This document shows positions 1 to 23,700 of a stretch of DNA of 32,152 nt, in pieces. This DNA comes from Perkinsus chesapeaki. Taxonomy: Eukaryota; Perkinsozoa; Perkinsida; Perkinsidae. The notes beneath the pieces are model-generated. The model had not been told where the DNA came from, did no database searches, and saw nothing but the letters and a program-made list of their open reading frames with translations. Location: positions 1 to 32,152 of the forward strand of contig JAAPAO010000408.1 in assembly GCA_013115145.1 (NCBI GenBank). Reading direction: 5' to 3'. The position numbers and the translations under genes are program-made. The first letter of the stretch is position 1, and the number at the start of each line of letters is the position of its first letter.

Positions 1-890
1 TAAGGGTACTACTGCACACTAGAACCGGGCTGGGCCACACAATGGTGCCGGGTAGTGCCGGGGATCTTGGAGGCCGCCCGGCTATCGCCGGGTAGCGCCG
101 GGTAGGGCGCCGGGCCGCCCGGCGGCTGCCGGGTTGCCGGGTGGGTTGCGGCGCCTCTGGTAGGCGCCAAAGCGGCGAAATTATAAACGAATATAAGGCA
201 GCAAGTTCCCGAAAAATTTTGTATTTTTTTCTGAAAGATTTTTTCGCGATGCAGTATTTGGCAGAAATACATTCCTACGGTTAGTCACTGAGTCACCGCG
301 ATCCATCCCAGGTGTGGAGTCGTAGAGAAACGTCCGCGGTTCCCATAAGGATTGCATTTCAAATCTCCTTTCGGCCATGGAACCTTTTTGTTCGACCGCA
401 TTAGGCACTGGTTTTTGCCCTCTGTGGAACACATTCCTGAGGCTAGATGAACCCTGATGCCAGATATATAACGTTGTCTTTATTCAGGGAACTTACTACT
501 ACTAGTGATCTGTAGCGACGGCAACTTATCATTTATCCAATATCGATGGATATAGATGAGTAATTTTTGTGACACGAAAATTATCGAAAATGAGTTGCAC
601 ATATGTCGGCATCGAGGCGTTAGATAGTCGTGATGCCTGGCTCGGGAAGCACAGAAACTCAATGCACTTTTGTATGTGTATTTTGGCTTCAACTTTATTC
701 TTCATTCCAGTTCACTATAGTGAAGCTCAACAGGCCCGGAGATCCATCGCCCTGGTGATGAGGAGCTCACCCCAGCGGCTTCGAATTTTCTCAGGAATTT
801 TCCGATCTTTAGGCCCTTGAGATGGGAGAATAATTGGGCACGTTCGACTAAAGTTCAGACAAGGGTTTAGAGCATGCCAACGTGCTACAG
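1..890. other. Upstream region of the prolidase gene; 5' exons not resolved
   Basis: No confident gene. Positions 40-175 are very GC-rich and built from degenerate copies of a GCCGGGTAG-like unit. The prolidase that starts to be readable at 891 lacks roughly its first 100 residues, so 5' exons should lie here or before the window. The only hint is around 610-670 (+), where a short open stretch reads DAWLGKHRNSMHF, reminiscent of the family's WMGK segment. I could not join it to 891 in frame with canonical splice sites. Confidence 0.4.
40..175. repeat. GC-rich degenerate direct repeat
   Basis: Repeated GCCGGGTAG, GCCGGGTAGC and GCCGGGTTGCC-like units follow one another with variable spacers, flanked by sequence of ordinary composition. 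No coding signal is seen. It may be a minisatellite or a structured promoter-proximal GC island. Confidence 0.6.
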
Positions 891-3800
891 GAGGAATCTT
901 GCATGGCTCGTAGGTACCTGGTAGATGATGTTCGCTATGTCGACGAAATAGATCTATCTGGTGCGAAGGCTACGATGGAGGTACCGGGGATCGAACTCGG
1001 GTCTTTCGGTTATTAGTGCGGCTCAGATTGAAGGCGTTAATCGTGATTCGGGCACTGACCATTCAGTTGTGAATAAGGACGGTGTTGCCCTCCCTAATAA
1101 GCTGGACGGCAGCGCTCTGTGGGACTTGCTTAATGAGATGAGAAGTGTTAAAGACGAGGAGGAGATCAAGATAATGGAGTAAGAAAAATGCACCTGGCGG
1201 GGATCGAACCCGGGTGTTAGGTATGCCTGTCATGTCTCCTCTGCTGCACATTTATCGACTATGCGGGCTTGCTATGCCGACCAGGACAACAGCCATCGGA
1301 TGGAGTATAATGCCGTGGCTAATTTCCGATATGAAGGGGCAATGAGGGGATGTCAACGTAAGCAGGGAGCTCGGGTACGCCTTGGCCAGAATTTCGGAAA
1401 AGAACGGAGATAAAGTTATACGTAACGATGTACTTTTTCAACATTAAATACTGCGATTCTCACCGTTTGCCGTTTGCTGGATATGACTTTATCATTCCAA
1501 CATATAACTGTCGTGATTTTCGAGCTTCGTTTCCTTCTTTGGGAAGCGTCCGGCTAATTAACTAATCGTTGTTGGAGCAGATGGTCCTACAAGGTGTACA
1601 CTTCACGCCTTCGTTTGGTTTCGAGCACATTCGGCATTTCCGTGGCGAATTCGTTGCTTTCAAGTGCTATCAAGCTTCGTTCCCTTCTTTGGGGTATGTC
1701 GGGCTTATTATTAGTGGCAAACGTACACTGGGAACTATCGAACTTCGCTAACCGAAGAACTTCTAAGTGTAGTACTTCTACAGTAGTAGGGTCATTTACC
1801 CTTGAGAGCAGGGAACCCCTCTGGGCATGGGCTCATTCTTTGCGCTTTGGTGATTCCCACGAAAAATCGGGTTTGGGATTTTCTGGATTGTAGTCGGGTT
1901 ATCTGGATCCGGGTTTCAGGTGTCGGTTACGGTTGCATTGGTTGTTCTGGTACCTCCAATGCTTCTCTACATTATGGTCATCCAGCCGAGCCTAATGATA
2001 AGAGTGTGCACAAGTCAGATTTGAGGCTGCTAGATATGGGAGCTGAGTAATACAGAAGGGACAGCAGGGATCTGGACATTTATTGTTGAATCATTCAACA
2101 ACCAATTGAACCATTCAACTTGGATGGTTTATCGTTAAAAGGGTGGGATGGGTAGATTACTGGCAGTAGCTCCTCTATCGCTGCTGCTGCTGCTCGGAGC
2201 CATATTTGACATCGGTTACTCCTGCAGCGATTAACATTTCGATGTGCCAAACTCGCTGTAAACAATTAGTAGAGTAATGATATATAATAGAGCAAACCTA
2301 AATTCGAAGAAGATCTTCGTCATCAATCTCGGGCCACAATAGTTCACTAAGTTAGTCTTACTTTTCACCGGAGGAACTCGGAGATATACTCGTTGTTGTA
2401 AATATGGTAGAGGATAGGGTGGATCCTTCTTAAGGTACCACTGTTATACAGCTGATGTGACCTGTACGTTCCCTACAAGTGGCCAGTTCTCCGACCTTCA
2501 AAAGGCTGCCTACGAGTCAGTATTGGCAGCAGTTCACGCAATAGAGGGGATATTGAAGCCTGGTCTGGATTATAGAGATATGCATAGGAAGGCTACTAGA
2601 GTCATTGCTGAGTAATACGGGGGAGAGTTGAGCTTCAGGGAATCTTTCATGCTTGACCTGGCAAGAATCTTCTCTGTTTCGACTTTCGAAGGATTTCTTT
2701 ATTTGACTTGCCACAATATTTTGGTTTCGAGCTCAGAAGGAATTGCTTCGTGTCGAGCTTCGAAGAATCTCCCCTCTTCCAACCTTGAAGGATATTTCTT
2801 ATTTCGACCTTGAAGTTCAAGGTTTGAATGGATATTTCTTGCCTTGGGCTCGGGAGGATCTTTCTAAGTTTGACCTTGGAGAATCTTTCACATTTGAACC
2901 TTGAAAGAATCTTACTGTTTTCGAGCTTGGACTTATTCCCGGCATGTCTTTTCAGAGAGCTCACTCGCCGTCTCGGTCTCTTCACTGCCACTATTGATGA
3001 TGTCTGTAATGAGGCATTGGTTGCAAGATATCTCATGCCACATGGGCTGGGACATATGCTTGGATTGGACTGTCACGATGTTGGAGGGTAGTACTACCGC
3101 GCGCCACGAAAATGGTGGATTCGGCCCAACAGTGTGGATGTGATTCGCATACCACGCATAGCAACGTTTTGAATCCGCGCGTTCTGGATCGTCATGCGAA
3201 TTTTCTCGGTCAAATATCCTGGGGTCCTGGGATCTTTGTGAGAATGTGCCGAAATGTTCCTGGGAGAAATGCTATAGTTTTTTGCTAGTAAACCGTGTTT
3301 GTTTCGACTAGATACGAGCCTGGTCATTACAAAGATGCGGAAGATGTGTCTCTTACTGGATTGAGGTTGGGCAGGCCTATTAAGGAGGGTTATATCTTGA
3401 CGGTGGAGCCAGGATGGTAATAAGATTACCAACACGGTCTGGTGTATTGTTAACAATTTGGAATACGTGCCGAAGGGAGGCTTCCCTCGGTACGTAAAAC
3501 GATGTAAACAATGTTAAAGGGAAGTCCCCTGGGAAGGTCGTAGAATGGGCAGCATTGGCTGAGTCTATACAGGTGAATATACTTGTATATTATACGCTAA
3601 GTAGCGTACTCATATCGATTGCCTATATTATAGAGTAATGATTGATCCTCGTCGGGTTAAGGTATGAAATTTATAACAGATATCATTGATTATTATGAAG
3701 CTTAGTTGCAATGGGAGTGGACCTCTGATAGCAAGTATTCATTTGTTTAGTTACTTTAACCCGTATTTAATCGACAAGTGGTGTGCTGATCCAGTCCACT

Positions 3801-4326
3801 CTAAGATGGTTAATGAATCAGTATTGAAGTCTCTTATACCAGTAGGTGGTATTAGGATTGAGGATGATGTGTTGATTACTAAGGATGGTTGCAGAGTACT
3901 TAATGATGTAAGTGTCGGGTGGGGGGATCGAACCTGTGTGTATTGATAGCGGCGCAAGATATCGTTCCTGGTGGTTCTGATACGTAGAATACCAATCGGA
4001 AGGGTGGGTTTTGAAAAAGGAGTCTTGCTTCAGGGTGGTAACAGAATTTAATAGTCCGGAAAGAGGAATGATTCCCGTTGGTTGTATAATTTCTAATTAT
4101 CAAGTAAAATAGAGGAAAATAAAGTACAATATCAAAAATTATTGATTAGTGATTTATTATTTTATTACCTGAATGATAATGCAATTCGTACCACTAAAGC
4201 ACAATATTTACAGTTGCCGAGAATCTTGTGGGTGAGCAGGTACCCCGCACTGTGAAGGATATCGAAGACTTCATGCAGGGTAAGATAGACTGGGTCCCTG
4301 GTAAAGGCAAAGTGAATAAGGCTTAA
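891..4326 (+). CDS. PEPD: Xaa-Pro dipeptidase (prolidase), 9 exons, 5' end missing
   Basis: Prolidase is a cytosolic metallopeptidase of family M24B that cleaves X-Pro dipeptides. Proposed exons: 891-980, 1027-1178, 1221-1357, 1920-2046, 2435-2611, 2956-3087, 3312-3416, 3751-3907, 4240-4326. Phases agree throughout and 387 residues are visible; the family is near 490, so the N-terminus is incomplete. All five metal ligands are recognisable: Asp in LLDMGAE, Asp eleven residues later in TADVTC (across the exon 4/5 junction, with the family spacing), His in PHGLGH, Glu in TVEPG and Glu in RIEDD. The C-terminus matches the VPRTVxxIE family motif and then KVNKA-stop. Introns 1 and 2 are only 46 and 42 bases and carry tRNA-like sequence, and intron 8 begins with another such module. 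Intron 5 is a minisatellite. The alternative acceptor at 4213 would add nine residues but breaks the family length. Confidence 0.9.
981..1026 (-). repeat. tRNA T-arm-like module forming prolidase intron 1
   Basis: The 46-base GT-AG intron carries, on the minus strand, AGTTCGATCCC, a near-match to the Pol III B-box/T-loop consensus GGTTCGANTCC. The flanking five-base arms CCGAG and CCCGG pair at 4 of 5 positions. The T-arm lies right against the 5' splice site. No D-arm, 5' acceptor strand or convincing anticodon stem is present, so this is not a tRNA gene. Confidence 0.65.
1179..1220 (-). repeat. tRNA 3'-end-like module forming prolidase intron 2
   Basis: The complete intron is 42 bases. Its reverse complement reads CCGGG, loop TTCGATC, CCCGC (4 of 5 stem pairs), then CAGGTGC in the place of a 3' acceptor strand, a discriminator-like A and TTTTT. 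That is the order of a tRNA gene's 3' end with its Pol III terminator. The T-run, read on the plus strand, supplies the A-rich segment just after GTAAG. The 5' half of a tRNA is absent. Confidence 0.7.
1521..1720. repeat. Dispersed direct duplication in prolidase intron 3
   Basis: About 40 bases starting at 1521 (GAGCTTCGTTTCCTTCTTTG) recur in diverged form at about 1671 (AAGCTTCGTTCCCTTCTTTG), 150 bases downstream. Both continue into similar GTCxGGCTxATT sequence. The intron (1358-1919) otherwise shows nothing recognisable. Confidence 0.55.
2083..2101. repeat. Perfect hairpin, 9-bp arms, one-base centre
   Basis: TTGTTGAAT and ATTCAACAA flank a single c inside prolidase intron 4. It belongs to the class of odd-length perfect inverted repeats seen across the window. 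Confidence 0.8.
2638..2940. repeat. Intronic minisatellite, about 11 degenerate ~25-base units
   Basis: Prolidase intron 5 (2612-2955) is almost wholly made of degenerate copies of a unit like GAATCTTTCTTATTTCGACC followed by TTGAAG. Starts are recognisable near 2640, 2664, 2691, 2740, 2765, 2791, 2827, 2855, 2881 and 2908. Spacing is about 24-27 bases, with indels. The array ends just before the 3' splice site at 2955. Confidence 0.7.
3908..3949 (-). repeat. tRNA T-arm-like module at the 5' end of prolidase intron 8
   Basis: It begins exactly at the 5' splice site (GTAAGT) and ends in GATAG after 42 bases, so it has the size and both ends of a self-contained short intron within a 332-base intron. 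The minus strand has GGTTCGATCCCCCC, a B-box match, but the adjacent arm ACAGG pairs at only two positions. The acceptor and T-run are not recognisable. Confidence 0.55.
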
Positions 4327-4738
4327 GTATGGATTATAATACTAAGCAGTTCTGGTTTCTCAAACTGGTCTGAGTTGAAGTTGAGTGTTGAATTGGGGGA
4401 CGGTTAGCATGGAGTGGTTGGTAATGACCAATCACTGTTGGAATTAAGTCTGCAAGTAGTAGTGTAACATAGGCTCAGGGACTGATGTGAGTGTACTGTA
4501 GCAAACGGGGTTGATTTTTGACCGTATGGACAGGCAAACCTTATATGTTGGATATATTATTATACTCTATTATAATATTTAATAACTTTATTTATTATAT
4601 TACTGTATATTGTTGGATTTCTATGTTTAGTGTTGTTTAGAGTTTTTCGGGGGAAAGATTATAGAATTGATGGCAGATAGCGGACCTCTATAAGATGCCT
4701 TTCGCACTCCCCAAACGTCTGTCTTCCTTGTAGTATTA
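4327..4738. other. Prolidase-SLC37 intergenic spacer
   Basis: No gene is seen. The part around 4550-4620 is AT-rich (runs of TATTATA type). No recognisable polyadenylation or promoter element could be assigned. Confidence 0.5.
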
Positions 4739-7700
4739 ATGGTTGACAATGTGTCTGCCCACAACAGACTACCTCTTATATCGTCACTCCATCACTCTCG
4801 TGTGAGAGTGCTCATCATTACCTTCTGCAGTTATGCAGCTCTGCATGCAGCCAGGAAGGCATTTTCTAATTCTAAGGCTGTAATAAAGGAGGGCAGAGGA
4901 CGTCGTATTCAACGGAATGGTCTATTGTAATTCTAGATAGCTTCATTCGAGTTTATACGTCTGTTGTAAGTCCTCGTACGGTCTTTGACGTTTTTCATGG
5001 TACGGTTTGCAAGTACCAGTGAATTCACGCACTCAGCGGGGATTCAGCCTATATGGAAGGTGTCTTCTTTTCAGTGTTGATAATTCCTCTCGTTGGTGGA
5101 ATTCCGATGCTTCTGGGCTATCGAAATGTACCTGCCTAATTGTGGCATAGTTGCGCAGTATACAGCCCAACGCAATGAAATAGAATACTTCGTGCTCTAT
5201 GGATTTCTCACTCTTGAGTGTTAACGAGTGAAACTCCAAACATGAGTACTACAACAAGTGTGATCGTAGTGTTCAATCGTCGAGTCGCTACTACGGGAAG
5301 ACCTGAGGGGGGGGGGGGAGTTGCCTGCTTTTGTTCAGGCATTGCAGGACGCCCGTCCTAGTACGTTCCCTACCTCCACCCTTGCTGTTCTGGATACTCT
5401 CTTCATGATAGCTTACTCATCGGGGCTATTACTAGCAGGCCGCCTCGGGGACGTCTTCTCGGCGTCAAGGGTTCTTGCCATTGGTTTATGTCTGACAACT
5501 GTGATCCAGACTATTTTTGCAGTGTTATGTGTCTTGAGGTCACCTGTGACGTGGGAATTCACTTTGGGCCTCTACGTTATGTGGATGATGAATGGATTGG
5601 TAATACTAAGGTCACAGGAAAGGTTTTGGTGAAATTCAACGGGTTGAATTTCAGCGTATTTTTCCCACGAGTTGCATACTAATCGGTATAAATCGTATTG
5701 AAGCTTCATTACATTAATCACATTAGTACTTGTTGTTTTTGCATTGTATGAGTTGTGGGAGCGATGCGTGTTGCTCACCGAGGCAGACTTACCGACGACG
5801 ATAGACTTGCCCTTTCTTGGTCCACATTACGATGATAGCGAATCGCTATCGCTATTCGCTTGATCGCTATCTTGTGAAAAGCCACATTCACACACATATG
5901 GGGGACCTCGCATTCGGCTCTCGTGGCATAAAGCAGCTCAACATATATCCTGGAGATTGCCGTCGATGAGCCGTATAAAGCAATCAATTTGAAGAGTTCA
6001 CTAATTGAAATACAATGTCATACAGTATTAGTATCCCCAATAGTATTAGAAAGTATCGGGTACATAGTGTGTAGACCTGCCTGCCAATGCGAGGACCTGC
6101 GGCTTCATATTGAGCGACAACAAGGCTACTACTCATTCGAAGAACACATCCTGACGTTCAATTTCATCGCTGGTCTGAGCAAACTGCGCTATGAGATCGC
6201 TCTGCCGCGTTTGAAGGTCTTGACTCGTGGATAGTCTCTACAGGAAATGGTCGAGCTTGAATTACAACGAGCGTGCCTAGAGTCTTCTAGACAACCACCA
6301 GCGGTTCGGAGTGAATTTTAATTCTCCCGACGTCATGTGACATGATTCATGTCAGGCGGTTACTTTGCATATTCCCGGCAAAGCTCATTTTTCTTATCAA
6401 GAACTAGTATACAAGTTAGACATCTCCATTTCACCACCTTGCCAACCGTTTATAATCCTCCACTGAAGAGCTAATATTACATGCCATAGTTCTCCTCGGT
6501 TACCTCGTGACAGGGACTCTTTGCTACGCCCTTGTAGTGGAAAAATATCATGTCCGAGTGGAGCAATTAAACTGACCTCAGGTTCAATCACTATGTTGGC
6601 CTGCTTGTGTGAAATTGGTGGGCAACTGGCTCGCTCCCGTTCATCATCTTATTGGTGACCCGGAAGATACTTCCTCATCATCCGAAGATTCCGAGACCAC
6701 CAGCCTAGCTGATAATGACATGGGCGTTGTCAATCCGGCCCACTCTGGCATGCTGTTTGGTCTTTGGTCATCGAATGCGAGTGTTGGTAACATCGTCGGA
6801 GCATTGATGGCAGCGGGTGCGCTGGGCATTGCGGGGGCCTTATCGGGTCCCAAGGAGATAGGGGTAGGCACTGGGCAAGACTGGTCCTTTGAACCTCAGA
6901 GCTGCTCTCAGGTTCTTATGGTGTTCATCGGGCCATCGGCATTGATGCTGCTGTTTGCTTACCTATCCTTTGGGTTGACAGACTATCCACCTACCACTGA
7001 TAATGCTCGAGAGCTAGAGGAGGTAAGCTCTGGTAAGCTTGTTAACGCTCTTCATCAGAGCTACATCAGTGTTATTCTCAACGGATACTGCTGCTAGGAC
7101 TCTAACCAGTGAGTGCCAAACTGTGCTGCGATACGTGATGAACGTGTCACTTTTCGCCTAACTCCTTGACTACTATTAAGACGAGATCGGAATTGTGCGA
7201 GCGATAAAGTTCCGGTTATTGGCGATATAATTGACATCGGCAATCGTATGGCTAATATTTACATCATGTAGATATGAGCCATACGCTTTGTAGGTTAAGT
7301 TTTGGAGTAGTTCCCGGCGGGAACTACAGTGGTACGGGAACTTCCCGCACCAGTTCACGTACAAGTGCGATTCGCTGTGAGCTCTTCCGTGTCAGATTTC
7401 CTTCCAGGTGCCTCCAGCGCCGCCACGTACCCCAGAAATGCCAACCTTCGAAGCGATGCTGGGCGGCCTACGCGAGATCTGGCATGCATTCTGGCTGCCA
7501 TTCGTGGCGCGCTACTCCCTAGTGTACGCCTGTACAAAAGGTGTCAACTACGCAATGTTCTTCTGGCTTCCGTTTTACCTCAGCGAGGTAACTCCGGAAT
7601 CACCAGTATTTGCCGAAGCCGGAGAAGCGCTCGCCCTGGCAGGTATGCCACTTGGACCCTGGTCACGCCGATGGGCTATCTACGTTCTACGATATGGGTC

Positions 7701-9316
7701 AGTGTATCGGCGGTGTGCTGGCTGGCTCTATCGTGGACAAGTTCGCTAAAGGAAGGAAGTCGATTGTGAGTCCGGTTTTGGTTGGAATCTCTGGGAGGGT
7801 GAACGAAGCTTGACTGAGGAGAGCGTGATTGACACAACACTTTTGTGCACTTCAAAAATCTATGTCTCACAGCCGATGACTGACCGAGTTTTTTCCTCGA
7901 TCAATCCCTGGTTATTAAAACACAAAAACGTACTTAATATGGCTCTATGGTACCATGGAGGTCAGCCGTTGGGTCTTTTGACCATTGAGGTTGAGTTTTT
8001 TCTAAACGTCTTAGCCGGGATTCGTACCTGTGACCCTCGTTTTTAAAGTGCTATATTTTTGGGCGCACCCATCCCAGACGGTAAGCTCTACAGTTTTGAG
8101 CTCCTGAGGCATTAAAGTTTGGAAGTTCATTCAAATCCGTCGGAAAAATCTTGGTGCACTAAATCCGATGTCAGCCCCGTCTCCGGTCACCTGTGGCTCG
8201 CTTCGATCGATTCCTCCTACCTGGTCAGGTCATCACCGTCTTCCTAGTGTTGGCTATCATCCCCACCTTGGCGCTAAGTATGAAATATGAGTCTGTTATC
8301 CCTATCACAATAATTATATTCGTTGCTGGGCTTCTGGTAAGGGCCGTCATCGCAGGATTTTCCACCGGTTCCGACAACGCGGTTTGCGTGGCCGCCGGCT
8401 CGGGAGCCCTGTACGTTCTGTAATGAGCTCCACACATACTGCGGGACCAATGTAGCGTTCCTCCTATAAGCTTTAAAAACACTGCATGAGCATACTCCGT
8501 ATTGAAAGGGTTAATCACCTCTGTCAAGAGAGGTATTTCTGGGCTGTTATCACCATCGTCATCGATAACCTATCACATTTGTCATTCTCTACAACCGTCT
8601 TGTATTGCTTTTTGTGAACCCGTACTTGTCATTATCGTTCTATCCTGGAGAGTCAGCGATGAAATTTACTTTCATCAACATAGCTAGATTCTTTCTCACT
8701 TCATAAGTATACATATACTTCCGTCTTGTACTAGGTCGGTGGCCCAGCCAATCTCATCTCCGCGGCAGTTTGCGCGGATCTAGGCAGCCAGGCCGAGTCT
8801 GATGTGACGGCATCCGTCAGTGGCTTGGTGGATGGTGTAGCATCGATCGGAGCAGCTCTCACTCAGCTGGCCATTCCCCTGCTAACCAACGGCACTAGCT
8901 GGCTATGGCTGTTCGTTGCATTTACAGGTTAGTAAAATGCCCCAGCTGGGATTCGACCCCGGGACTTGTCTAATAGCCGTTTCATTATTATATATCGGAT
9001 TTGTATGTGCTCGCTCAACTCTAGACCTGGCAAAGTTCGGGCCAATTCTAAGCCCTAGAGAACTTCTTTACCTCAGTGAGTGAATTCCAGAGACAAACTC
9101 AGGCCGGCGAGCTAAAGCGTTTACTGCCTTGGGGTCGCCTTGCTTGCACAGTACTTTGTGACTTCTAAAAATGCTGCCTGTGGGAATCGAACCTGTGCCT
9201 CCATCGCAGGTATGCTTTTGCTGGCAGCACTCCTTCTACTCCCCGTTGTTAAGAAGGAGCTTACATCATTGAGTATGCCGAGAGAGGGAGCGCCACATGC
9301 TCACGTGCGAGAATGA
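4739..9316 (+). CDS. SLC37-like sugar-phosphate/phosphate antiporter (MFS), 8 exons
   Basis: Proposed exons: 4739-4879, 5321-5599, 6582-7022, 7408-7587, 7643-7765, 8229-8336, 8735-8927, 9210-9316, giving 523 residues with consistent phase, in the range of the SLC37 family. Family landmarks: SYAALHAARKAFSN in the first membrane helix, LDTLFMIAYSSGLLLAGRLG, the WPACVKLVGNWL helix, GLWSSNASVGNIVG, FYDMGQCIGGVLAGSIVDK, and GGPANLISAAVCADLG with GLVDGVASIGAAL near the C-terminus. A Ser/Glu-rich loop (SSSSEDSETTS) follows NWL. Known relatives exchange glucose-6-phosphate or glycerol-3-phosphate for phosphate across ER or plasma membranes; the substrate here is unknown. The end of exon 1 is the least certain junction: a GTAATA donor at 4880 was chosen because it keeps phase. 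A 12-base G run (5307-5318) adjoins the exon 2 acceptor. Introns are 441, 982, 385, 55, 463, 398 and 282 bases. Confidence 0.85.
5834..5850. repeat. Perfect hairpin, 8-bp arms, one-base centre
   Basis: GATAGCGA, a, TCGCTATC inside SLC37 intron 2. It is followed at once by further GCTATTCGC and GATCGCTATC echoes of the same arm. Confidence 0.8.
6333..6352. repeat. Zig-zag repeat: arm, reverse complement, arm
   Basis: TCATGT, one g, ACATGA, one t, TCATGT. Three consecutive perfect 6-base arms of alternating orientation, each separated by one base, in SLC37 intron 2. Confidence 0.8.
7307..7347. repeat. Perfect 10-bp hairpin followed by a related 6-bp hairpin
   Basis: GTAGTTCCCG, g, CGGGAACTAC (7307-7327), then eight bases later CGGGAA, c, TTCCCG (7335-7347), which reuses the same arm. 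It lies in SLC37 intron 3. Confidence 0.8.
8015..8035 (-). repeat. Decayed tRNA T-loop-like motif in SLC37 intron 5
   Basis: Minus strand: CACAGGTACGAATCCCGGC. It differs from the B-box consensus at one key T-loop position (GTACGAATCCC). The CACAGG arm is shared with the modules at 3908-3949 and 9158-9209. Confidence 0.35.
8928..8976 (-). repeat. tRNA 3'-end-like module at the 5' end of SLC37 intron 7
   Basis: It begins at the 5' splice site (GTTAGT) and ends in TAATAG after 49 bases. The minus strand reads CCGGG, loop GTCGAAT, CCCAG (4 of 5 pairs), acceptor-like CTGGGGC, discriminator A, TTTT. The order is the same as in prolidase intron 2. Confidence 0.65.
9158..9209 (-). repeat. tRNA 3'-end-like module at the 3' end of SLC37 intron 7
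   Basis: It ends exactly at the CAG acceptor of the last exon. The minus strand has a perfect B-box GGTTCGATTCC, then CACAGGCAGC, A, TTTTT, i.e. acceptor-like strand, discriminator and terminator-like T-run. The T-stem itself is poor (2 of 5 pairs). Together with 8928-8976, intron 7 therefore has a tRNA-like module at each end around 181 bases of unrelated sequence. Confidence 0.6.
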
Positions 9317-9764: not shown

Positions 9765-9844
9765 CGGGTCGAATACCGATGTGTAAAGGTTAACTGCTTA
9801 TACGGTATAATCAGTTAACCTTTACACATCGGTATTCGATCCGC
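9765..9844. repeat. Long inverted repeat, about 32-bp arms with one mismatch
   Basis: Arms at 9765-9796 and 9812-9843 are reverse complements apart from one G/A difference and enclose a 15-base loop. Each arm carries GG(G/A)TCGAATACC, itself close to the B-box-like core of the intronic modules, so the element looks like a head-to-head pair of such motifs. It lies about 290 bases before the helicase start. Confidence 0.85.
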
Positions 9845-16168: not shown

Positions 16169-16595
16169 ATGTCAGTTAATCGGGTTAATACGCTCCCCCT
16201 CTGCACTCGATTCCTGCTAGTGTTCATGATGCTAATCTCGTCCAGTGGTGTGGCTCCCACCGGTACCTTCGTCAAGTACAATTCCGAGTATTGTCTAGAG
16301 GTCACTTTGTCACATTAGAAAGCCACCTAGTTATTATAGTTAATAGGGCTGAGGATCAAATACGGTCTGCTGCTCTCAAGTTTGTTAAAGAAGCACAAGC
16401 TAATGCGTACCAGATGCCTAAAGAACCGGTTGTACGCAGGTTCTACGAGGCATTGTCAAGTCTTGTAAGGAAGGAGTCGGGCTTAAGCTCGTCGATGGAG
16501 ACTTATCAACATTTGCCTACGATAACAGTGGGAAGGCAATGAAGACTAAACTCCTAGGAGAACAAGCAACATTTCGCCTTGGCCAATGTTCTTGA
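16169..16595 (+). pseudogene. Frameshifted copy of the small secreted protein at 18950
   Basis: The start at 16169 is followed by a plausible signal peptide (RFLLVFMMLISSSG) and a YCLEV segment as in the intact paralogue, then reads into TAG at 16316. Aligned with the copy at 18950-19381, two single-base deletions are needed, one between 16296 and 16318 and one near 16451. Beyond each the original frame resumes with strong similarity (EDQIRSAALKF, then MKTKLL and QCS-stop). The 3' flanks of the two copies are also similar for about 150 bases, so a duplicated segment is likely. Assembly error or +1 decoding are less likely explanations. Confidence 0.75.
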
Positions 16596-18027: not shown

Positions 18028-18949
18028 GAATAATGAAGTAAACTTTCCCGAAAATCTGCGGACAATTTCAATCGGAACCCCCTAAATAAGATTATGCGGA
18101 TCTTGACGAAATCCGTGAAACAAATCAGCCCGCAACAAGCTCATAGGAAGGCAGTCTCCCTATCAGCTCACTAACAGTATCAGACACTGCTCGTGCCTCC
18201 TTGCACTAGATTAGTAATAGCGCCAAATGCCTTTCGAATGTGGCTCGTTTTTCTTCCCTGATCGCGCCTGCTACGAGCCTAGTGGAGAGGCTCGCGATGC
18301 GTACGTATGCAGCTTTCCAGCTTGCATTGTAGGCCGATCAATCTCATGGTGAGACATAAAACTTTTCGGCCCTACTTCACTCGCTCCTCCACAATATGCC
18401 AGGCTTGCAGCGCAACTTCATCAGAATATAGCATGTTTGACCAGGTATGATCTTGTAGACAGTATGCTCTCCATTGCAGGTCTCTGGGGAAGGACTTAGA
18501 ATCGTCTCCGCAGTGAAATAGTCTTACGAAGCTCAACTGGTAGGCAACCACTGAGACTTAAGCCATGCCTGTGAGAGGCTCATCCTAGCATGGTGCGTAT
18601 TCAGTTTGTTGGGAGCTTCGAGGGGCTTCGAGAAACAATCCTCCGCTGAATATTCCTCATCTTTCGCGGCGTGGTGGCGCACTACGAAGTCAGGCGTTCG
18701 GTGTCCCTAACATGCACACACATACACATCATCGCACATACACACGAACAACTCCGCAAACTCGTATCTCTACAATTCGCGCCTCAACTTATACCCACAC
18801 AGCTTCAACAGCTCCAAGCGATTCTCAATTTTCTTTTCACAGTGGGCAGGTCGGCGCCTGTAACATAACTGTTCTGCGCCGCCCAGGGGCTTCCATTCCC
18901 TAGCGCGTCACTTAGCCCCAACGACAGAGATTCGAGCTTTCGGGAAAAC

Positions 18950-19381
18950 ATGTTCCCCAACACCAAGATGTTCTCATATCGTACCCTATTCGTGTTGATG
19001 CTGATGACGGTAACCTTGTCAAGCGGTGTGCCTCCCCATGGTTCCTTCTATAAGAATTCCAAGGACTCCAAGTATTGTCTAGAAGTCGCCTGGGTACCAT
19101 TACAAAGCGATCTACTTATTATAGTTGATCGGGGTGAGGATCAAGTACGCTCTGCTGCTCTCAACTTTCTTGAAGGACCTGGAGCTGATGTGTACCGGGT
19201 TTCTGGAGAGAAGATTGTACACAAGCTCTACGAGGCATTTCTCAAGTCTTGTAAAGAACGAGTCGGACTCAAGCTCGCCGATGGCGATTTATCAACATTT
19301 GCATATGCTAGAAGTAATGGAACAATGAAGACTAAACTCCTAGGAAAACAAGCAACGTTTCGTTCCGGCCAGTGTCCTTGA
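18950..19381 (+). CDS. Small secreted protein of unknown function, 143 residues
   Basis: A single open frame with an N-terminal hydrophobic stretch (TLFVLMLMTVTLSSG) that fits a cleavable signal peptide. The mature part has YCLEV, LLIIVDRGEDQVRSAALNF and a C-terminal GQCP, with three Cys in the mature part. I recognise no family. The start could also be the Met at 18968. A frameshifted paralogue lies 2.8 kb upstream and the conserved positions are shared between them, which supports coding. The charged middle resembles no catalytic motif known to me. Confidence 0.7.
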   Translation: MFPNTKMFSYRTLFVLMLMTVTLSSGVPPHGSFYKNSKDSKYCLEVAWVPLQSDLLIIVDRGEDQVRSAALNFLEGPGADVYRVSGEKIVHKLYEAFLKSCKERVGLKLADGDLSTFAYARSNGTMKTKLLGKQATFRSGQCP

Positions 19382-20776: not shown

Positions 20777-23700
20777 CTATTCCGTCTCAAGACATAAGTA
20801 TCCACACTGAGAGCCTACCACTGACGTCGCCTCGTCCTCGCTTCCGGGCTCAGGGAGATCTCTAGGATTCACTTCCAAATTTGGCGGGCATTCTTGTGAA
20901 ATACACATACGGTGGTCCTCCGGCACGAATAGCACCAAAGGGAACTCCCAGCTCATATAAATTCTGTCCTGACCGAAGAATCTCGCCATTTCTCGTTCAA
21001 CATATTCATTTCTATTCTGGCGTGCTTCCGGACCATACCCTGACATCCGCGGTGGCCCGCTGTATGCCCATGTACCACCCTTTTCTTTCATAGTAGCTAG
21101 ACTAGTAATCTTAACATCAGCTCCCCCATCCGCTGAGTTCAATGGAGCAATACTTCCTCTATTGCCTGGTTCATTAAACTGCATCACCGAATACATCGTC
21201 GCAACGCTATTAACTTTGTGTGCGAGTTGCTGGAAAGTCTCAGCGCGTTTATCCTGCGGATAAGAGCGCTCGTAACCGAGATGCGTACGGCTACTGGAGA
21301 GCATCGCCTCGTTGAAACCAGGGAAGTATCCCTTCTCATTGATAAGCTTCGAAATATCTTCAGATGCATAAAAGCCGTATTCATCCTCGCCGGCGCCCGG
21401 CGCCGTCTCGAGAACCAACGCAGTGCCAGAGGGAAGATCCGGAAGCCCCTGGTCGACAGCCTCTTTCACTTTCTCGTAATCAACGACTATCCACTGCGAG
21501 TTGTACGTGCCACTCGGCACGTCGCACGTCTCCATTAAGTCCTTCCACGACGGTGTGTCGTGTGCCAATGAAACGGCTATCATAACTCTGATGAAGTCTG
21601 GAGTAGATTCAGGCGTCCCGAATCGGCCTGGTTTGAGGATATTAGTAGTCGTCTCAAATGACACCAACCATGTTGAAGGACGCACTACCCAATCATCCGT
21701 ACCTGATAAATTTGGAAGAAATCATTGGAGGCCACTCACAATACTGTACAATGTAACAGCAACAGTGCACATCACAGCATGCAAGAGGGGTTTCTGGTAC
21801 AACATCTGTACAATGTAACAGCAACAGTGCACATCACAGCATGCAAGAGGGGTTTCTGGTACAACCTCTGTCACAAGTTGTGGACCACAATGATTATTCT
21901 GAGGACAGATCCGTCCACCGAATAAAAGCAAAAATGAATCTACTCAGCTCTAATGGAGAATAGTAGAATTCCTAACCTTCGCTGAAATCGGGCCTCTCTC
22001 TAACAATACCGAGAGTTCCTCTCTGAAAACTCTTTACTGCTCAGATTGCTCGTCTGATATCTTTATGATGAAATAAGCTGAGCCTTTAGGGTAGTGTATA
22101 GTGAGTCACCATTGGTGACCATACCATGGTCCAAGCAAGATACTTACTGCTTATGCATCCGGGATAGCTGGAGAACTGCACGGTTGCATCCGACCTCTCC
22201 TGCATGACCATCGGAGCTGAGATGTCTTTCATCACTCGAACCATTTCGGGAAAGCTTTCCCATGTGGTACTTGAAGAAGGATTATAGCGGATGAGAAGCC
22301 TCTATCGAATCCACGATCGTCGAGGAAAGATTTGAGTGTCACTTATCGCAGTAAGTCCTCTATTTTGCTCTTGAATACGCGTGGGCCACGCGGCTTGGGT
22401 GTGCGCCTCACACCCACGTGGCGTAGCGTGGCGTGGCGCATCACTCTGTGAGGTCTTATTCCAAAACCCAAAATGGTTCAGTTGGACTATCCATTCTATC
22501 TGCAACTTCCAGCAAGGGTCGGTACCGACAATCTATCTCGAAATATTGTCGTACGGAGCAAGTTCGTTGAGCCTCTGCCCTTGAGGCCCTCACGTCTCAC
22601 AAAGTGCATCACACAGAAGTAGCAAAGCCGCTGTACGGTAGCATAGTTAAGAAAGTCTCCGCCTTACTGAGCCGAGATAACATCGGTAACGACGCCTTGT
22701 TGGTTACGAACCAGTCTGGTTAGAGCGCTGCATCTCTGGGGGACAGAGGGCACAAACTGAGAGCTGCCAGACCGATGAAGACGTATTTCCCGAACTGAAG
22801 GATGTTCTACGCCTGAAGGCTAAACCCTGAAATTGGCCATGAGGGGGCTGCTCACTGATTTGCTCCAGTTCTGGCAACTGACCGTCTGCATTCAGCGCTA
22901 ATATGTCCAAAAAAGATAAAGCTGCCTTCGGAGATGACGAAGTGTACTGAAAGGAAAATATCATTCTCTAGAAAAATATTGGGCCTTCAAACACAGTGCA
23001 GTTGCTTTGTTGCATTTCTCTGATGTATTCTCACAAACGCCCGACACAGTGAGCTTGCGAGAATTCTGACATTTCTCCGGTTTGGAGTCATTGCGTACGG
23101 ACTGGAATCCGATACACCTTCTCAGACTGAGATGACTTGATGCACATGTTCTCGAAATGACTAATGGAAATTTAGACAGAAGGCTATTAGCCTAATTAGG
23201 CTAATAGACTATAGCTATCAGGCTAATGTGCTGTGAATACTTCGATCCAAGTCGCGAGGCTGAGGAGCCCCACCTTGGCTCCTGCGTTTTGTTCCACAAC
23301 TGCATTGTAGCCATCCATTATACCGAGTAATTGGCAATAGTATCCATGAGCGAGATCAAAGTACTCCGCTTCGAGGTGGCACCCCCGATGGTTGTGATCA
23401 CGCTCCATGAAATTATCCAAGATAGGCCCGAAATATCTAAGACGACAGATATTTAATGAAGGAATTATTTCTGAGTCCAACAAACTCTGTCGGTACTAAT
23501 GGGTAGAGCGGAACTGCTCCAATTGAGTGAGCGAAGCTCACTAAAGTTATGCCTATGCTGTTCCTTCGGCTCTCACTGTTCTTTCATCCATATTGCGGTA
23601 GTAGTCCGTTCCTCTCTTCTGCCGATCATTTTCTCCGTGTTAAGATGATAGAATAGCCACATGTACTCCGCCGATAGGAGGCCTTCTAGTGTTCCCATAG

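Follow-up and report, generated by a model that had tools for sequence, protein, structure and literature searches.

A 32,152-nucleotide stretch of the Perkinsus chesapeaki genome (contig JAAPAO010000408.1, referred to below as the window; the host assembly, GCA_013115145.1, comprises 35.4 Mb in 884 contigs) raises the question of whether spliceosomal introns can be made from the 3' ends of tRNA genes. A first-pass annotation of the window had described five introns or intron ends, in two unrelated genes, which carry a match to the tRNA T-loop/B-box on the strand opposite the gene, and had proposed a class of intron made from tRNA 3' fragments inserted antisense. The results presented here favour an introner-like family in which the core is similar to a tRNA gene's 3' end and many units act as introners, a reading to which a probability of roughly two in three is assigned. 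Copies of the family occur in both orientations with near-strict internal spacing, and in 11 cases supported by homology or by a deposited gene model a copy accounts for a whole intron.

The B-box pattern GGTTCGANTCC was found 751 times in the genome (387 + 364), compared to 88 times (46 + 42) for the reversed pattern, and at least 62 tRNA genes in the genome scored above the cut-off of the Rfam tRNA model. The fetched loci contained 100 distinct exact B-box matches, 25 of which fell in tRNAs called by ARAGORN and 75 of which did not; 74 of the latter had sufficient flanking sequence for a profile. Conservation in these 74 copies (all with an exact B-box, drawn from the first 100 places listed and from exact matches met in other loci) covers the interval from -10 to +25 relative to the B-box, corresponding to tRNA positions 42-77, and the profile is near flat elsewhere. 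The conserved stretch spans the part of a tRNA gene between the variable loop and the RNA polymerase III (Pol III) terminator, both included, and goes no further, in the order AGGTC, G/C-C/T-R, B-box, CAG, four free positions, GGC, A and TTTT, with T most frequent at each of positions 74-77 (48, 50, 48 and 44 of 74 copies, respectively). Eight of the 74 had profile scores below 16, and these may be matches by chance; the other 66, together with 20 near-consensus copies and 7 copies from the window, form the set of 93 copies referred to below (loci L149-L168 were picked for closeness to the consensus).

A genome-wide search with GGTTCGAWTCCCAG-N4-GGCATTTT, allowing up to three mismatches, gave 538 matches, compared to none for the reverse of the pattern; the excess of the motif that the first-pass annotation had anticipated holds genome-wide. 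The gap between the two fixed blocks is near-strictly four bases long, as N5 and N3 versions of the pattern returned only 41 and 32 matches, many of them N4 loci recovered out of register. Extension of the consensus to 34 bases gave 105 matches, again compared to none. The exact consensus was also searched against a prokaryote genome collection, where one of two matches overlapped a tRNA-Arg gene called by ARAGORN and the other had no ARAGORN call and was tRNA-like by eye, and against viral contigs, where no match was found. Density is uneven: the 32-kb window has 7 copies, whereas 105 kb surrounding protein-kinase genes contained only 2 non-tRNA matches scoring at least 18 (L133 and L148).

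Among the 93 copies, 26 were read as whole introns of 42-64 bases (mean 49.7) with an open frame across each junction; these were chosen by reading, 10 from the 20 near-consensus copies, 14 from the 66 and 2 from the 7 window copies. The junctions of 11 of the 26 are backed by protein relatives or a deposited model, and the other 15 by open frames only. Alignments to PDB chains were gap-free at the junction for the introns in the genes for valyl-tRNA synthetase (L055), NAD kinase (L111), a DEAD-box helicase (L155), Cdc37 (L154), a histidine kinase (L149) and gamma-tubulin (L152). The protein is continuous across the intron in P. olseni for RPC3 (L064) and in both P. olseni and P. marinus for the gene at L096, a deposited P. 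chesapeaki model contains the intron at L114, and a P. olseni protein (P0057) supports two introns in the window. Protein comparison supports the removal of such compact units by splicing. The 26 introns share the profile, their identified hosts are unrelated, and the similarity reaches near both intron boundaries, as is characteristic of introners.

A fixed splice rule (donor and acceptor at the unit edges and an open frame extending 60 bases to either side, with the expectation taken from 4000 random anchors) was passed by 39 of the 93 copies compared to 14.9 expected, made up of 26 sense copies (10.0 expected) and 13 antisense copies (5.4 expected). For the near-consensus copies the figures were 12 of 20 compared to 3.2, with 9 sense (2.2 expected) and 3 antisense (1.2 expected, not significant). 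The rule was passed by 22 of the 26 compact introns and by 17 further copies outside that list. A Pfam search of 10 spliced translations found nothing above the curated cut-off, and two weak tests based on coding scores, one of them the looser splice test described below, gave no result.

Fourteen of the 26 compact introns carry the unit in the sense orientation, with the T-run near the acceptor, and twelve in the antisense orientation, so antisense insertion as a rule is not supported and an antisense-only version of the proposal was rejected. Where the coding strand could be called in the flanks of the 66 copies, it was the motif strand in 19 and the opposite strand in 11, with 36 unclear (on calibration the calls were right in 62 cases, wrong in 3 and unclear in 23); the antisense bias seen in the window is local and is absent genome-wide. 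In the sense introns the donor lies 6-25 bases before the B-box, and the acceptor follows the T-run block at -1 to 14 bases. In the antisense introns the donor lies -9 to 6 bases before the A-run block (2-6 bases before it in 10 of 12) and the acceptor 10-33 bases after the B-box, in keeping with the earlier suggestion that the T-run supplies sequence beside the splice site. GTRAG donors were enriched upstream of sense copies (14 of 74, compared to 4-9 in six control stretches), as were donors at the antisense edge (GTRAG 8 compared to 0-3, GTAAAA-type 5 compared to 0-1).

In the favoured reading, the family comprises dispersed units of approximately 36 bases, with the consensus AGGTCGYRGGTTCGAWTCCCAG-N4-GGCATTTT, resembling a tRNA gene from its variable loop to its terminator. 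In many cases one unit and a few flanking bases per side constitute an entire GT-AG intron of 42-64 bases; in sense units the T-run stands just before the acceptor (TTTTAG or TTTCAG), in antisense units it becomes the start of the intron (GTAAAA or GTRAGAAAAA), and other copies lie in longer introns or intergenic DNA. Insertion of the unit would have created the intron, as opposed to capture of the unit by an old intron.

The window itself was outside the training set of the 36-position profile, which was trained on other contigs. Seven copies scored at least 18 in its 32 kb, all antisense, compared to no matches at that score for two control profiles in the 119 kb searched (in which some loci overlap); the profile hits at L023 and L028 are not independent, since both loci belong to the training set. 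The bare B-box with up to two mismatches was only weakly enriched in the window (36 compared to 24.94 expected, with 4 of 100 shuffles as high), and tRNA and Rfam scans of the window returned no match.

Three element-bearing introns lie in a plus-strand prolidase gene (Xaa-Pro dipeptidase, M24 peptidase), which was located at 885-4326 from around residue 130 of its P. olseni homologue P0057 onward; the spliced query is 71% identical to P0057, and the N-terminal part was not located. Alignment to P0057 places a whole 46-base intron at 981-1026, whose element core at 972-1007 (score 21.4) overlaps the last 9 exon bases before it; the intron with only five added bases scores 2.6 because the core extends into the exon. 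P0057 is also continuous across a whole 42-base intron at 1179-1220, which contains the core at 1185-1220 (score 27.9). The third is a single intron of 332 bases at 3908-4239, placed by the VLND|IPRS junction in P0057, with an element at 3909-3944 at its donor end (score 21.5, a value reached by 0 of 200 shuffles). The second host, also on the plus strand, is an MFS transporter gene deposited as FOL47_007090 (6750-9313, from alignment of the deposited model P0184 to the window), which likewise has three element-bearing introns. The model joins FVAFTG to MLLL across a single 282-base intron at 8928-9209, with copies at its 5' end (8934-8969, score 35.7) and its 3' end (9168-9203, score 33.8). 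A weaker copy at 7082-7117 (score 18.1) and another at 8003-8038 (score 26.2), both on the minus strand, lie in introns of approximately 380 and 460 bases which start, according to P0184, at around 7023 and 7767. In total the unit is present in 6 of the 20 window introns placed by homology or deposited models (981, counted via its core at 972-1007, 1179, 3908, ~7023, ~7767 and 8928); the boundaries of several long introns, those at ~7023 and ~7767 included, are approximate.

These placements bear on what had been read in the window. An antisense T-loop/B-box match was recovered in all five segments (at 987, 1200, 3924, 8949 and 9183 of the minus strand, with 0-2 mismatches), as was the seven-base acceptor-like strand followed by A and TTTT at 1179, 8928 and 9158. 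The segments at 981-1026 and 1179-1220 are whole introns as described, but that at 3908-3949 is one end of a longer intron, and those at 8928-8976 and 9158-9209 are the two ends of another. By eye, three T-stems pair at 4 of 5 positions (972/981, 1179 and 8934), the copy at 9168 keeps 2 of 5, and that at 3909 lacks the three outer pairs.

How far the core is really a tRNA sequence is considered next. It has a B-box, the 7-base acceptor spacing, a discriminator A and a T-run, all in tRNA order, and the prokaryote matches likewise point to tRNA. The T-stem is not maintained, as the outer pairs occur in 35, 32 and 27 of the 74 copies compared to 31.6, 29.0 and 29.1 in shuffles, and all three were kept in 25 of 25 real tRNAs. 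No covariation was found between T-stem pairs. In 97 words of the 34-base consensus the outer pairs again did not exceed shuffles and did not covary, a test limited by a pattern that demands CAG at 63-65. The states CA, CG and TG occur at 50-51 and 63-64, as CpG decay would give; such decay may be responsible for some of the loss of pairing but does not explain why G-G is frequent at 49-65. The variable positions resemble the 3' ends of 20 real tRNAs no more closely than column-shuffled copies do (9.92 compared to 9.98 of 19), and similarity to specific tRNA genes of the species was not found in that comparison. The suggestion that the copies represent different tRNAs is unsupported, because they match real tRNAs only as well as shuffles do and their T-stems do not covary. 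There was no excess of a complementary 5' acceptor strand around the copies. As to the statement that the 5' half of the tRNA is never present, A-box-like matches are indeed unenriched (5 of 74, compared to 3-6 in three control stretches), but approximately four copies (L007, L028, L056 and L095) apparently keep a D-arm-like stretch when inspected by eye. The columns of the profile are close to independent, yet nearest neighbours are closer than in column shuffles (12.3 compared to 11.7 of 19). Introns made of a tRNA-3'-end-like unit with its terminator, recurring in unrelated genes well beyond chance, are what stands of the proposed intron class; the core is probably derived from a tRNA or tRNA-like gene, with no identified tRNA as the source.

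The four bases at consensus positions 66-69 vary freely between fixed flanks (12 different tetranucleotides in 13 exact copies), and this fixed-variable-fixed pattern is a puzzle that constrains any mechanism. A bare 4-base direct match between N4 and the flanks was seen in 49 copies compared to 38.9 expected (P = 0.01), and G+N4 in 17 compared to 11.7 (P = 0.045); the remaining words and the inverted repeats were not significant, and there was no clear fixed offset. Within the family, retroposition is hinted at most clearly by two loci, namely L002 (around 1501), where the 12-base repeat ATTTTTTGAATT stands at both ends of a unit of approximately 58 bases, and L095 (around 316), which is tRNA-like, includes an A-box-like stretch and is flanked by a 9-base repeat. 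The combination of A and B boxes with a target site duplication (TSD), as in a tRNA-derived short interspersed element (SINE), was not found in the family, with L095 as a possible exception. No terminal inverted repeats (TIRs) were seen, though no separate test for them was made. Movement could have been by retroposition, DNA transposition or RNA-based routes.

A longer dispersed repeat was also observed at L078, L110 and L148 (250-303 bases aligned, 84-92% identical), with a B-box, a paired T-stem (GTGGG/CCCAC) and a T-run, and is possibly a separate tRNA-like or SINE family. Similar matches to the 34-base consensus on C156, C269, C312 and C661 are only candidates for a link to it.

Several results weigh against an introner-like family of this kind. 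The absence of T-stem covariation and the freely varying N4 are not expected of simple decay from one ancestor. Over all 74 copies, YAG after the T-run was not enriched (27 compared to 26-35), nor was a weak GTR donor at the antisense edge (31-33 compared to 23-33), and therefore only part of the copies are introns. There is no general TSD (junction similarity in the 26 compact introns, P = 0.16), and the 93 copies show no excess of long flanking repeats apart from L002 and L095, neither of which is a compact intron. The fixed splice rule was drawn up with examples already in view; it accepts two window copies situated in long introns and fails to recover either of the whole prolidase introns. 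A looser splice test gave no separation (19 of 74 copies compared to 70 of 356 controls scoring above 4). Five of nine spliced pieces (L073, L087, L092, L100 and L056, all part of a chimeric query) matched no protein, the first four belonging to the 15 compact introns backed by open frames only.

Could the unit instead be a functional DNA site under selection, such as an extended B-box bound by TFIIIC (of the extra-TFIIIC type), which introns hold because they fill much of the genome? The near-independence of the columns, the variation of N4 while the other 22 positions are perfect, the near-strict spacing, and the occurrence of copies in both orientations and outside compact introns would all suit such a site. 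It does not predict that the unit should span introns of 42-64 bases from edge to edge in unrelated genes, nor that copies should have nearer neighbours than column shuffles; in addition, GGCA at positions 70-73 is not known to have a role in TFIIIC binding, which also counts against it. We regard this explanation as unlikely, and slightly less credit still is given to old tRNA pseudogene or SINE debris lying in pre-existing introns and intergenic DNA with no part in making introns. Debris of this sort would be in line with the copies inside long introns (3909, 7082, 8003, 8934 and 9168), with the flanking repeats of L002 and of the tRNA-like L095 with its A-box-like stretch, and with the existence of the longer B-box repeat. 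A unit of approximately 36 bases falling into a 45-base intron should however yield around 80 bases, whereas the compact introns measure 42-64, and A-box-like sequence is unenriched.

Chance or compositional likeness to tRNA was rejected: the bare B-box is barely above chance in the window and 8 of the 74 exact copies are low on the profile, but the genome-wide counts (538 compared to 0 and 751 compared to 88) leave it a negligible probability. The primer-binding sites of long terminal repeat (LTR) retrotransposons are antisense tRNA 3' sequence, as relics of such sites would be, and copy the CCA end; since positions 74-77 most often hold T and not CCA, and the sense orientation is found in 14 of the 26 compact introns, this origin was likewise rejected as scarcely credible. 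A more far-reaching reading is put forward tentatively, and we would sooner expect it to fail than to hold. Hundreds of spliceosomal introns would have been made in P. chesapeaki by insertion, in either orientation, of 3' ends drawn from a pool of tRNA-like Pol III units that shared the T-arm and terminator and differed at acceptor positions 66-69 (hence the hypervariable tetranucleotide), the terminator being turned into a splice site on the transcribed strand.

Elsewhere in the window, a helicase gene at around 15 kb has a 99% match to a P. chesapeaki protein. Two related open reading frames (ORFs) at 16172-16550 and 18930-19380 are 38% identical over 50 residues, and as the deposited helicase model P0001 extends into the former, it may fuse two genes. 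By eye, a near-perfect inverted repeat (9766-9842, arms of approximately 31 bases, short AT-rich loop) lies between the MFS and helicase genes, and a direct tandem duplication (~21745-21868, period of approximately 62 bases) adjoins a minus-strand ORF at 20777-21721.

Among known systems, tRNA-derived SINEs have a Pol III B-box, a terminator-like T-run and dispersed copies, and retain the A box as well as the B box and, in most cases, a body. The Perkinsus unit shares the B-box, T-run and dispersal, but its A-box is unenriched and conservation ends at the terminator. Extra-TFIIIC sites consist of a B-box without a tRNA gene; the unit resembles them in this respect, but it also has GGCA and a T-run, spaced as in tRNA, and makes up entire introns. 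As with introners in the accounts given in PMC9860276 and PMC7789003, similar introns are found in unrelated genes of an aquatic protist, with similarity towards both splice sites and both orientations allowed for; unlike them, the unit is only approximately 36 bases long and strongly degenerate, with no general TSD found and TIRs not seen. According to PMC9860276, introners are mostly read as DNA transposons, and most DNA-type families show a TSD or TIRs; the paper also describes ascomycete families with neither, so the failure to find either here is not decisive for membership. The words tRNA, SINE and Perkinsus do not occur in the main text of that paper, and the titles and abstract openings listed on introners, tRNA-derived intron gain, Perkinsus introns or SINEs and TFIIIC contained no description of tRNA-tail-like introns.

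How spliceosomal introns arise has long been debated. The presence in P. chesapeaki of hundreds of tRNA-tail-like repeats, some of which are nearly an entire intron, suggests an undescribed source of new introns. As the unit is short and degenerate, BLAST at an E value of 1e-5, as used in the text of PMC9860276, may miss most copies; if the reading is true, a 36-base introner of this kind, working in both orientations and liable to escape BLAST-based surveys, would mean that intron-making elements are undercounted, and it would name a testable source of introns in Pol III transcription units.

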